A stretch of 54,023 nucleotides of DNA from Spirochaetales bacterium (lineage in GTDB: Bacteria > Spirochaetota > Spirochaetia > DAHUYW01). Shown here piece by piece: positions 2,719 through 7,322 of this stretch (position 1 is the stretch's first letter; each line of letters begins with the position of its first letter). The stretch covers positions 1 through 54,023 of the forward strand of contig DAHVAK010000159.1 of assembly GCA_027314665.1 (NCBI GenBank), read 5' to 3'. The translations under genes and the position numbers were made by a program. The notes beneath the pieces were generated by a model. It searched no databases, was not told the DNA's origin, and saw only the letters and a list, made by a program, of their open reading frames with translations.

Positions 2719-5700
2719 TCACTGTCGGATTCGTTTCTTCGATCTCCACAGCTCAATGACTTTCTTTCGGATCTCTTCAAGCATGAAGATCGCGAGCATG
2801 AGCGCGAAAAGGAGCGCCCAGTCGCTCCAGCCGAGCCCAAGGGTGGTAAAGACCGGCTGAAAAAGCGGCGTATAGACGAGCAAGGCGGTGAACGCGAGCT
2901 CGAAGGCGATCCCGACGACGATGAGGCGGTTCGACCAGAATCCGATTCGGAAGGCGGAAAGGCGCTCGCTTCGGCACGAGAAGACATTCGCGATCTGCAT
3001 GACGACGATCCCGGCGAAAACCATGGTGGCGGCCTTGATGTGCAGGGGATTCGTGAACGCTGTTACACTGAGCTCCAGCTGCTGGCCGAACCTCCAGCCG
3101 CCGTGGAGCAGCGTGGTAAAGTAAGCGCCAAGCACGGCCACGGTGTTCAACAAGCCGAGATAAACATAGCCTCGAAACAGGAGGAATCCGTTGATGATTC
3201 CCTGCTTCCTGTCGCGCGGCGGCACCTCCATGATCCCCGGCTCGGGCCGCTCGATGCCAAGGGCAAGGGCGGGGATCGTCTCCGTCCCAAGATCGATCGC
3301 AAGGATTTGAAGCGCCGTGATCGGCGCGGGAATCTTCAGGAGCACGTACAGGATGAAGGGTACCGCCTCGGGAACTAGATGAGCGAAGATATACGTGATG
3401 AACTTCTTCACGTTCGCGAAGACCGCTCGGCCCTCCTCGATCGCGGACACGATGCTCGCGAAGTTGTCATCGGTGAGGATCATCTCGGCCGACTCCCGCG
3501 CGACATCCGTGCCTCGCAGACCCATCGCCACGCCGATATCGGCCTTCTTGAGCGCCGGAGCATCGTTCACACCGTCTCCCGTGACCGCGACGATATTCCC
3601 CATCTCCTTCAGCGCCGTCACGACTCGGAGCTTATGTTCGGGGCTGGCCCTGGCGAATACCACCTCCTCGTTGGCGAGCCTGCTCTGAAGCTCGTCATCC
3701 GTCATTTCCGAGAGCTCGGCTCCGCTGATGACCGTCGAACGACCCGCAGGCATCAAGTCCAACTTGCGGGCGACGGACAACGCGGTAAGTTGATAGTCGC
3801 CGGTAACCATGATGATGCGGATCCCGGCACGCTTGCACTTTTCAACGGCCTGGGCGACGCCGGATCGCGGGGGATCGTTCATTCCTGTGACGCCGAGGAA
3901 GGTGAGGGAGCGCTCTGCTTGTTCCGAGGAAAGCGAGCGTACCGATTCGCTGTCTGCCGGCCGGAAGGCGAAGCCGAGTACGCGCAATCCTTCGGAAGCA
4001 AGACGATCTACCTCGCTCCTGATTTCCGTGCGCATGGTCTCACGAAGGTCGCGCTGCTGCCCTCCGACCAAGACCGTGTCGCACAGGTCGAGAAGCTCAT
4101 TCGGTGCACCCTTTACGAGAACGACGGCATGTTTATCCTCGAAGAGGCGAACTGAGCTCATGCGTTTGCGCACCGGTTCAAAGGGGAATCGCTTGAGCTC
4201 GGGATAATCCGCACGAAGCGATTCGATATCCGCTCCAGACTTTCGTGCAAGCACCAGGAGCGCGCCTTCGGTAGGGTCTCCAGTGATCGTCCAATAGGGG
4301 ACTTTCGGGCCTGGCTTGGTCAATGTGGCGGTGTTGCAGAGCACCGCAGTCTTTATGAAGAGATCAAACTCGCTCGAGTGCAGTGCTTCTTGATCAATGG
4401 TCCCATTCGTGCCCGAGAAGTTTCCGCTCGGCTCGTAGCCAACCCCTGAGATATGCAAAGACCTGCCGCCCACCCACATATCGGTGGTGGTCATCTCGTT
4501 GGTCGTAAGGGTGCCCGTCTTGTCCGTGCAAATGACGTTGGTGGAGCCGAGGGTTTCCACGGAGGAGAGCTTTTTGATCAAGGCGCCCTGCTTCGCCATT
4601 CGCTGTACCGCCATCGCGAGAGCGAGGGATACCGTGGGAAGCAACCCTTCAGGAACGTTGGCGAGGATGATCCCGATTGCGAAGATTGCTGAGGCCGTGA
4701 GGTCCATTTTGGTGAATGCGGTTCCGATAAGGAAGAAGCCCAACCCCATTGCAACCGAAATAAGAGCGATTACCCGTGTGAGCCGTCCAATCTCTTCCTG
4801 GAGGGGACTTTGGGTGATCTTGATAGACTGGGTGAGCGACGCGATTTGACCGATTTCCGTGCGCATACCCGTGGCGGTCACCACCGCGGTCCCTGATCCC
4901 GAGATAACGCTCGTGCCTGCAAACACGAGCACGGGTATCTCAATCCAAAGGAACCGCCGATCGCTCCCCTGGTTCGGCATTTCTGCCATCTTGTACACAG
5001 GTTTCGACTCACCGGAGAACGCGCTGTTGTCGACGCGCAACTCGTCGGCATGGATAAGTCGCGCGTCCGCAGCGACGCTATCGCCCTCCTCCAGCTCCAC
5101 GATGTCGCCGGGAACGAGCTCCTCCGATGGTATGCGGATTGTCTTTCCGTCACGCAATACGTTTGCATACGATGGGATTAGCCCCTTCAGCGCTTCAATG
5201 GCCCGCTCAGCTCTGAACTCCTGCCAGAAGCTGAACAGCGCGTTCACGAAAATAACGATGAGGATAGCCAACGCGACCTGCCGCATCCCGATCGCATAGG
5301 CGAGCGCCGCTCCCACCCACATCAGGAGCGCGAGGAGGTTCACAAGATTGGCGAGGAACTTTCGCAGAAGCGACTCCGATCGCACGCTCTCGAGACGATT
5401 CGGGCCGTTTATTTGTCGACGATGATGCGCCTCGGACTCGCTCAGGCCCTGTCTTGTGGTTTCAAGTTCCTCGCAGATCTCCTCCTTCGAAAGCGGCACA
5501 AAGGCGTCCCTTCGCTTCCCGTGGGAGGTTATCGCTTTCAAGAGTTCGCCGTCGGTGCGTGCCGCGCGAATGTCGTTGAGAACGGTTCGTTGGCGCAGCA
5601 AATCCCCGATAATCGAAAGAATCTTCAGGTGGACATCGGTCGCAGCGGCGGGGGTGAGAAACAGGATAATCACGTCGACGGGCTGCCCATCCGGCGCCCC

Positions 5701-5967
5701 CCAGGGGATCCCCTGCTTCGCGGTCGCTATGAATACGATCGGCTCCCTGAGATTCGGCAGACGAGCGTGAGGGATTGCAACTCCGCCCCCAAGCGCAGTC
5801 TTGAGCGCCCCTTCGCGGCGGAGCACGGCGTGGAGGACTTGATCGGGGTCCCGCAGCCCCTTCCTGCTGCTGGCGTAGCCGACAATCTCAGCGATTGCCT
5901 CTCGTTTCGTAGAGGATACGACGTGCGCGCTAACCACATTCTTGTTGATGAGCGAGCCTATGTCCAT
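2719..5967 (-). CDS. Cation-transporting P2-type ATPase with N-terminal PTS EIIA (fructose/Ntr-type) domain
   Basis: A 1082-residue fusion. Residues 1 to about 150 form a PTS EIIA type-2 domain with phospho-acceptor His67 in GGVAIPHARL and the typical DVHLKILSIIGDLL helix. The rest is a full P2-type ATPase: N-terminal cation-ATPase segment (about 160-200), TM1-2 (about 205-245), TSGE-like AFSGES, NVPEGLL in TM4 as in Na,K-ATPases, phosphorylated Asp482 in DKTGTLT, KGAPNELL in the nucleotide domain, TGDGVNDAPALKKADIG, and a C-terminal six-helix region with the Na,K-ATPase-like NVFSCRSERL. Ion is likely Na+, K+ or Ca2+. ATG 5967 has GAGAGG upstream. EIIA implies control by PTS phosphorylation state; no other PTS gene is in the window. 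Confidence 0.92.
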   Translation of the reverse strand: MDIGSLINKNVVSAHVVSSTKREAIAEIVGYASSRKGLRDPDQVLHAVLRREGALKTALGGGVAIPHARLPNLREPIVFIATAKQGIPWGAPDGQPVDVIILFLTPAAATDVHLKILSIIGDLLRQRTVLNDIRAARTDGELLKAITSHGKRRDAFVPLSKEEICEELETTRQGLSESEAHHRRQINGPNRLESVRSESLLRKFLANLVNLLALLMWVGAALAYAIGMRQVALAILIVIFVNALFSFWQEFRAERAIEALKGLIPSYANVLRDGKTIRIPSEELVPGDIVELEEGDSVAADARLIHADELRVDNSAFSGESKPVYKMAEMPNQGSDRRFLWIEIPVLVFAGTSVISGSGTAVVTATGMRTEIGQIASLTQSIKITQSPLQEEIGRLTRVIALISVAMGLGFFLIGTAFTKMDLTASAIFAIGIILANVPEGLLPTVSLALAMAVQRMAKQGALIKKLSSVETLGSTNVICTDKTGTLTTNEMTTTDMWVGGRSLHISGVGYEPSGNFSGTNGTIDQEALHSSEFDLFIKTAVLCNTATLTKPGPKVPYWTITGDPTEGALLVLARKSGADIESLRADYPELKRFPFEPVRKRMSSVRLFEDKHAVVLVKGAPNELLDLCDTVLVGGQQRDLRETMRTEIRSEVDRLASEGLRVLGFAFRPADSESVRSLSSEQAERSLTFLGVTGMNDPPRSGVAQAVEKCKRAGIRIIMVTGDYQLTALSVARKLDLMPAGRSTVISGAELSEMTDDELQSRLANEEVVFARASPEHKLRVVTALKEMGNIVAVTGDGVNDAPALKKADIGVAMGLRGTDVARESAEMILTDDNFASIVSAIEEGRAVFANVKKFITYIFAHLVPEAVPFILYVLLKIPAPITALQILAIDLGTETIPALALGIERPEPGIMEVPPRDRKQGIINGFLLFRGYVYLGLLNTVAVLGAYFTTLLHGGWRFGQQLELSVTAFTNPLHIKAATMVFAGIVVMQIANVFSCRSERLSAFRIGFWSNRLIVVGIAFELAFTALLVYTPLFQPVFTTLGLGWSDWALLFALMLAIFMLEEIRKKVIELWRSKKRIRQ

Positions 5968-6296
5968 GCCGCCTCTCGCGAAAGGAGCCGACGATGATCT
6001 ACCTCTGAGATTATGCTCCTCCCCTCAGGCGCTGTCAAATCGAGGCGGGACGCGGCGCTGTTTTTCCTTCGTGACGAAGATCTTCCGGGAGAGCGCTGCG
6101 CACACTTGCTCCAGTGCCCTCCGCCCGCAAAAGTGCGCTTGATCAATTTGCCATTATTGGTTATATTGCCAACAATATTCGCACAACAGGCGTATTCTTT
6201 GCGTGGGACGAGCGTCTGAGGGTCGCCGTGGGTCGTTTGGCGACACGGGCCTTGCGGAACGCGTGATCACGGAGAGTCGTCCGCGCGGGAGATTGT
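5968..6296. other. Divergent intergenic region (329 bp) between ATPase and patatin genes
   Basis: No gene is convincing here; short open frames lack Shine-Dalgarno sequences and recognisable products. An AT-rich island at 6138-6185 stands out in GC-rich DNA. It contains the promoter candidate given separately and an imperfect inverted repeat around TTGGTTATATTGCCAA (6158-6173) that could be an operator. The opposite strand has TATAAC in the same island, so both divergent genes may start from it. Confidence 0.5.
6139..6167 (+). promoter_or_regulatory. Sigma-70-like promoter candidate for the patatin gene
   Basis: TTGATC (6139-6144), 17 bp spacer, TATATT (6162-6167) in the only AT-rich stretch of this gap. 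The predicted start is near 6174, giving a leader of about 120 nt. The TTGG/CCAA inverted repeat overlaps the -10. Confidence 0.5.
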
Positions 6297-7322
6297 ATGG
6301 TCACCGTTCTTTCGATTGATGGCGGCGGGATTCGGGGGGTAGTCCCTGCGCGAGTTCTTCGTGAGATCCGCCGACGCCTCGATGCCGGCGGAGAGAAGCG
6401 GTCCTTCGCCGAGCTCTTCGATCTGGTTGCCGGAACCTCAACCGGGGCTCTCTTGGCCCTCGGTATCGCCCTTCGCGACGAGAGGGGCGAGAAGGTCTAT
6501 TCAGCCGACGACCTCGTCGACCTCTACGAGCGGCGCGGGAAGGAGATCTTTCCTGTTTCGGTTCGGAGCGTGATCCACACGGCGATCCAGGTGTTTCACA
6601 ACAAGTATTCGGCCGATGGCTTCGAGCGAGTGCTCGCCGAGACCTTTGGTGATGCAACGCTGAAAGGCGGGGCGACAAACCTCTTGATCACCGCCTTCGA
6701 CACCGAGCGCATGAAGCCTCACTGGCTGAAGCACCGGCCGCCGCGAACCGAGTGGTCGGAGGATCGGGACTACTACATGCGCGACGTCGCCCGCGCATCC
6801 TCGGCGGCGCCGACCTACTTTCCGCCTGCGATAATCAGCCCGATCAGCGTCGTAAGGGAAAGGTTCTCGCTCATCGATGGAGCCGTTTTTGCCAACAACC
6901 CTGCGGGGCTCGCCTATGTTGAAGCGGCGAAGATCTTTCCCCGCGAGCGCGACTTTCTCATAGTCTCACTTGGGACCGGCGAGCTTCGCATCGGCTTTCC
7001 CTACCGGGAGATCCGCAACTGGGGATACATGGAGTGGGTGAATCCTGCGAAGGGTTTTCCGATCGGCGCCATCATGTCGGCGGGACAGAGCGAGGTCGTG
7101 AACTATCAGCTGGGTCGAATTGCGGACGCGCGCTACATCCGCCTAAGCGGGCTTCTCGACGAGGACAACGCCGCAATCGATGACGCGGGGCCGAAGAATC
7201 TCGCATCGCTTCGGGCGCTCTCCGAGCGCATCATCCAGTCACACGATGCTGAAATCGACGAGATCTGTGAAGCGCTGCGCTCGAGAAAGCCCGTTGGGCG
7301 ATCACAGGCGCTTCGGTCGTAG
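6297..7322 (+). CDS. Patatin-like phospholipase
   Basis: A 341-residue protein with all patatin hallmarks: the oxyanion loop DGGGIRG at residues 8-14, nucleophile Ser48 in GTSTG (46-50), and the dyad Asp194 in DGA followed by FANNPA. Patatins hydrolyse acyl ester bonds of phospholipids through this Ser-Asp dyad. No signal peptide or transmembrane segment is seen, so it is probably cytoplasmic or membrane-peripheral. GGGAG lies just before ATG 6297. Patatins also serve as CBASS effectors (CapV), but no cyclic-nucleotide synthase is nearby, so a lipid-turnover role is the simpler reading. It stands alone between divergent and convergent neighbours. Confidence 0.9.
   Translation: MVTVLSIDGGGIRGVVPARVLREIRRRLDAGGEKRSFAELFDLVAGTSTGALLALGIALRDERGEKVYSADDLVDLYERRGKEIFPVSVRSVIHTAIQVFHNKYSADGFERVLAETFGDATLKGGATNLLITAFDTERMKPHWLKHRPPRTEWSEDRDYYMRDVARASSAAPTYFPPAIISPISVVRERFSLIDGAVFANNPAGLAYVEAAKIFPRERDFLIVSLGTGELRIGFPYREIRNWGYMEWVNPAKGFPIGAIMSAGQSEVVNYQLGRIADARYIRLSGLLDEDNAAIDDAGPKNLASLRALSERIIQSHDAEIDEICEALRSRKPVGRSQALRS

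Follow-up and report, generated by a model that had tools for sequence, protein, structure and literature searches.

What would a cation pump do with a PTS regulator built into its own polypeptide? The question is raised by one gene in the 54,023-nucleotide stretch of Spirochaetales DNA analyzed here (hereafter the window), which a preliminary description had read as a phosphorylatable EIIA domain joined to an intact P-type ATPase. The gene runs from position 5967 to 2719 on the minus strand as a single uninterrupted frame, with an ATG start and no internal stop, and has the following features.

2719..5967 (minus): EIIA–P2 ATPase fusion gene, 1082 aa (open frame and Pfam)
5972..5977 (minus): GAGAGG, ribosome-binding-like hexamer 4 bases upstream of the ATG (sequence)
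5527..5952 (minus): PTS_EIIA_2, residues 6–147 (Pfam; best solved relative IIANtr 1a6j)
5767..5769 (minus): His67, predicted phospho-acceptor, aligned with IIANtr His73 (His in 38/38 fused proteins listed)
5629..5631 (minus): His113, second histidine at an active-site position, aligned with IIANtr His120 (27/27 full-length fused proteins, 32/38 overall)
5494..5526 (minus): linker, residues 148–158 (11 aa), leading from EIIA into the N-terminal end of the actuator domain (Pfam boundaries; similar length in 27 homologues)
2758..5493 (minus): P2-type ATPase, residues 159–1070 (Pfam, TIGRFAM-type models, structural relatives)
4930..4962 (minus): residues 336–346 with invariant Trp341/Glu343/Pro345 (FLWIEIP), a mark of fused pumps (alignment)
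4636..4659 (minus): M4 NVPEGLLP, Na,K-ATPase-type cation-site motif (alignment)
4522..4524 (minus): Asp482, catalytic aspartate of DKTGTLT (sequence; invariant in the full-length set)
3367..3384 (minus): M5 AHLVPE, residues 862–867 (alignment)
3280..3294 (minus): M6 DLGTE, residues 892–896, with Asp892 and Glu896 at the positions of Na,K-ATPase Asp804 and Asp808 (alignment)

Two protein families in one frame

Both halves of the preliminary reading were borne out. The first residues score 92.2 bits against PF00359 (curated cut-off 27; residues 6–147) and carry the xIPH phospho-acceptor histidine as His67, within AIPHAR. Among solved structures 1a6j, the IIANtr of E. coli, comes closest (E 5.6e-19), and its residue 120 lies opposite His113. 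The domain would resemble PtsN in its working, yet it is outside the PtsN equivalog family, falling short of both PtsN/IIANtr models (TIGR01419, 70.8 bits against a cut-off of 138.7; NF008145, 75.4 against 221). PtsN itself shares the domain family and both histidine positions but is a free cytosolic protein that acts by binding, whereas the EIIA studied here is a covalent part of a pump.

The remainder of the chain is a complete P2 ATPase. It scores 293.9 bits on the P-type ATPase model TIGR01494 (cut-off 62.3) and contains DKTGT at residue 482, a TGES-type loop (FSGES in the window), TGDGVNDxPALK and, beginning at residue 437, NVPEGLL, so that Asp482 and the M4 motif, like His67, lie where they had been placed. 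All P2 domains are present: Cation_ATPase_N (159–222), E1-E2_ATPase (263–460), Cation_ATPase (542–632), Hydrolase (478–810) and Cation_ATPase_C (880–1069). The fusion of EIIA and a complete P2 ATPase in one polypeptide is real.

The pump had been called Na,K-ATPase-like, a label that fits in part. The Na,K-ATPase alpha chain is its nearest solved sequence, Na,K-ATPase E1 structures are nearest to its folded model, and it shares NVPEGLL in M4; by contrast, the Na,K/H,K (P2C) subfamily model TIGR01106 gives 636.5 bits against a curated cut-off of 946.1. Where the Na,K cation site has M4 Glu, M5 Ser-Asn-Glu and M6 Asp-Asp, the window's pump has Glu440, His863-Leu864-Glu867 and Asp892-Glu896, and EIIA replaces the usual short N-terminus of the alpha chains. 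Fused homologues fall into three ATPase clades (below). Clades II and III have the Na,K-type site, with M4 Glu (PEGL), M5 SNxxE (SNPQE in most of clade III) and M6 DxxxD; clade I, including the window's pump, has A-H-L-V-P-E in M5 and D-L-G-T-E in M6. Because His863 occupies what we take to be the position of Na,K-ATPase Ser775, which is Lys791 in H,K-ATPase, the residue weakly suggests that clade I pumps may move or counter-move protons. P2 ATPases as a rule retain the M4 Glu in their cation sites; four fused members of clade I (L070, L071, L072 and L076) read NVPQGLM, with Gln replacing Glu (PQGL rather than PEGL).

Among the matches listed, the nearest ATPase relatives are unfused P2 pumps of the NVPEGLLP type from bacteria and archaea (Acetobacterium, Thermoanaerobacterium, Methanospirillum, Rhodococcus), which lack both EIIA and the Trp segment and whose genomes often lack HPr. 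The Ca2+ pumps SPCA/PMR1 and Listeria LMCA1 (P2A) share superfamily and domain layout with the fusion but score lower in sequence and have unlike M4–M6 cation-site residues.

Recurrence, conservation and origin of the fusion

A domain-architecture search had been proposed in the preliminary description; an alignment-based scan established the fusion as recurrent. The query was an alignment covering the first 358 residues, run against 84,980 species genomes and yielding minimum counts. We found the same EIIA–ATPase build in at least 38 proteins, mostly from MAGs, in three ATPase clades and at least seven phyla (Spirochaetota and at least six others). The genomes are assigned to Spirochaetota, Fibrobacterota, Planctomycetota, Omnitrophota, Bacteroidota, Myxococcota, Thermodesulfobacteriota and Acidobacteriota; the matches listed bear the labels Omnitrophota, Planctomycetota, Fibrobacter, Marinifilum, Desulfuromonadales, Deltaproteobacteria, Myxococcales, Desulfobacteraceae and Acidobacteria, and unfused relatives are also among them. 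Within Spirochaetota (393 genomes), fused homologues (L038–L046) occur in two families of a class other than the window's. Pfam places EIIA above cut-off in 8/8 representatives covering all three clades. In a divergent Leptospirae group it does so in two of eight proteins, with two more below cut-off and four without detection; in clade III, L040, L042, L043 and L044 are undetected and L041 is below cut-off or undetected.

The EIIA part has diverged far more than the pump (23–29% identity between clades against 44–52% for the ATPase), and its predicted phospho-acceptor has been kept throughout. The His67 column holds histidine in all 39 rows with a long N-terminus, or 38/38 of the proteins listed once a duplicate is removed; rows were chosen by N-terminal length, the histidine being no criterion. 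Across 27 full-length fused proteins the only invariant EIIA residues are His67, Pro106 and His113, the last of which is lost in several other fused members (present in 32 of the 38 listed). In the ATPase, Trp341, Glu343 and Pro345 are invariant in fused pumps and sit ahead of the FAG motif of the actuator region, in a stretch that is slightly longer in these pumps. Trp341 appears in 39/39 fused rows; of 51 other rows L092 alone has it, and that protein, truncated where its contig stops, is probably fused as well; no complete unfused relative in the alignment has the segment. One of our search patterns contained FLWIE, which biases clade III toward the segment. However, clades I and II except for the window's own pump (FLWLE, FVWTE, FIWTE and the like) were retrieved by the other pattern, as were the unfused pumps, and for these two clades the contrast therefore holds.

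In a quick tree of the ATPase region (LG+G4), three fused groups stood among unfused pumps, as several independent fusions would. We set that reading aside, since forcing all fused pumps into a single clade, on an alignment stripped of the Trp segment, raised the log-likelihood by 31.8 over that of the unconstrained quick search. With a p-AU of 0.837, these sequences do not reject a single origin, which is likely. Among the best 40 matches listed from a plasmid collection, none reaches the EIIA domain except Streptomyces H36, a two-piece match (query 71–1050) that we discarded as a fusion, its long frame having no N-terminal EIIA. No relative turned up in the viral contigs searched, and a full-text literature search, outside which most subscription papers and preprints lie, returned no paper on an EIIA–P-type ATPase fusion. 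The architecture is real, recurrent and apparently undescribed, and both of its component parts are well known.

Could the joined gene nonetheless mislead us about the protein? It comes from a 3.6 Mb draft genome of 299 contigs with 6.4% contamination, and a same-genus genome (G001) has no comparable pump, as might be expected of an assembly artefact or a contaminating contig. We give this explanation next to no weight: the frame is unbroken, the architecture is repeated in at least 37 other proteins, and the contig stretches neighbouring the pump gene are 70–76% identical to G001, so the contig belongs to the genome. G001 has other genes beside the phosphofructokinase common to both genomes, and the missing pump therefore points to a lineage-specific gain or loss. 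The preliminary description had also allowed for two separate products. These would be a free EIIA and a pump made from an internal start, for which codon 157 is a candidate: it is a GTG that precedes the Cation_ATPase_N match by two residues and has AAGGGA seven bases upstream. However, no start codon is conserved there in 26 homologues, most of which lack one with a ribosome-binding-like site, and the linker is maintained in three clades; we regard separate products as very improbable.

The pump gene is convergent with the phosphofructokinase gene and divergent from a patatin gene, so no operon partner is evident, and the 101 genes beside fused pumps at 31 loci show no conserved adjacency. 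The commonest of these neighbours include CBS-domain proteins (11/101) and membrane H+-pyrophosphatase (3/101). The patatin-like phospholipase in the window (6297–7322, plus strand) scores 177.8 bits on a CBASS phospholipase model with a cut-off of 200.

A regulatory phosphorelay as the probable input to the pump

By gene content, the phosphodonor chain is in place. In the source genome we find genes for two HPr proteins, both with the GIHxRP motif, for a single full-length Enzyme I and for seven EIIA_2 proteins. That neither HPr nor Enzyme I lies near the pump, as first remarked, is contradicted by nothing examined in the window; the genes for both lie in other parts of the genome. HPr occurs in 35 of the 38 other fusion genomes, and so does Enzyme I; the three absences of each probably reflect the draft state of most of these MAGs. 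HPr was found in only 14 of 37 genomes with unfused relatives, and with the source genome counted the contrast (36/39 against 14/37; Fisher p ~5e-7) is inflated by taxonomy, since many unfused relatives are from archaea, Chloroflexota or Actinomycetota.

The permeases present a different picture. Our search covered two permease families, PTS_EIIC (PF02378; Glc/Fru/Mtl-type) and EII-Sor (Man-type EIIC). The source genome has neither, PTS_EIIC is found in 0/38 other fusion genomes, and EII-Sor is above cut-off in 9/39, the source genome not among them. The preliminary description had the fusion couple sugar transport or PEP status to cation pumping. Because the chain ends in regulators, without permeases of the types tested, sugar-transport coupling appears unlikely, and PEP status, relayed by a regulatory PTS, would be the better reading. 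Leptospira and Planctomycetes have regulatory PTS chains without transporters (PMC2405797).

Two other EIIA proteins of the source genome are themselves fusions. One (L006:1462-2808, plus strand; G000:C126:10400) joins PTS_EIIA_2 to DacZ_P, a sensor-like domain, and to a diadenylate cyclase domain (DAC), and is a candidate PTS-controlled c-di-AMP synthase; of the papers that a literature search returned for both terms, none appears, judged by title and abstract, to deal with an EIIA–diadenylate cyclase fusion. The other (L004:1489-2886, minus strand; G000:C210) joins an HTH_17 helix-turn-helix to PTS_EIIA_2 and is likely a PTS-responsive DNA-binding regulator.

Taken together, the sequence evidence favors, if by no wide measure, a primary cation pump equipped with a PTS regulator of its own as a metabolic switch; the pump belongs to the prokaryotic P2 ATPases related to Na,K-ATPase. 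A built-in regulator, as originally proposed, is the most likely role of the domain, given His67 in 38/38 listed fusions and HPr and Enzyme I in the same genomes. Phosphate would pass from PEP through Enzyme I and HPr, both encoded, to His67 of the N-terminal EIIA. A tether of ~11 residues connects EIIA with the actuator at its N-terminal end; EIIA would probably set actuator mobility through its phosphorylation state, and the freedom of the actuator would switch pumping on or off. EIIA may dock on the Trp341 segment, which lies just past the TGES-type loop. As to sign, we lean slightly toward a pump that is held back by EIIA in its dephospho form and set free once EIIA is phosphorylated. Because the genome lacks sugar permeases of the two types searched, the PEP:pyruvate ratio, rather than the uptake of sugar, would serve as the signal, so that energy status, which other bacteria sense through EIIA domains, would set pump activity. 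An AlphaFold model (pLDDT 76.8, pTM 0.59) gives good confidence for EIIA and the N-domain; the placing of EIIA on the pump is not fixed in it, and residues 315–345, including the Trp segment, have low confidence. EIIA control of cation transport has precedent, since IIANtr regulates TrkA and stimulates KdpD (works cited in PMC4635465), and PtsN binds KdpD (PMC9239096); the literature searched offered no precedent for EIIA acting in cis on a pump.

EIIA might instead serve as a docking or stability module, His67 being kept for structure or binding and remaining unphosphorylated in the cell. The drift of the domain in clade III, where Pfam misses four members, and the loss of His113 in several fusions would suit such a role. 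It leaves unexplained why just two residues are shared by all 38 proteins, one of them at the phospho-acceptor position, and why the fusions occur in genomes with HPr and Enzyme I, and we consider it unlikely. Less likely again is a flow of information in the opposite direction, in which pump conformation would alter phosphate uptake by EIIA and so report ion status to the regulatory PTS. Six other EIIA proteins, the cyclase-fused and DNA-binding ones included, could read a shared phosphate pool, but a single membrane protein would draw off little of the phosphate on HPr, and the known IIANtr cases run from the PTS to transporters and kinases (PMC4635465).

We therefore return to control of the pump by the phosphorelay and what it would mean. 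Many bacteria encode Enzyme I, HPr and EIIA with few or no PTS permeases, and for such chains the fusion would offer a concrete, assayable output. c-di-AMP is a messenger tied to K+ homeostasis in other organisms. Tentatively, and with the balance of probability against the full picture, this pump family may be one in which, across many phyla with a mainly regulatory PTS, the PEP:pyruvate ratio gates pumping in cis; in the source organism the EIIA–DacZ_P–cyclase would act alongside, such that one phosphorelay would set both pumping and c-di-AMP. If true, the PTS phosphorelay would be directly linked to a primary ion pump within one molecule, and a relative of Na,K-ATPase would come with a switch supplied by nature.
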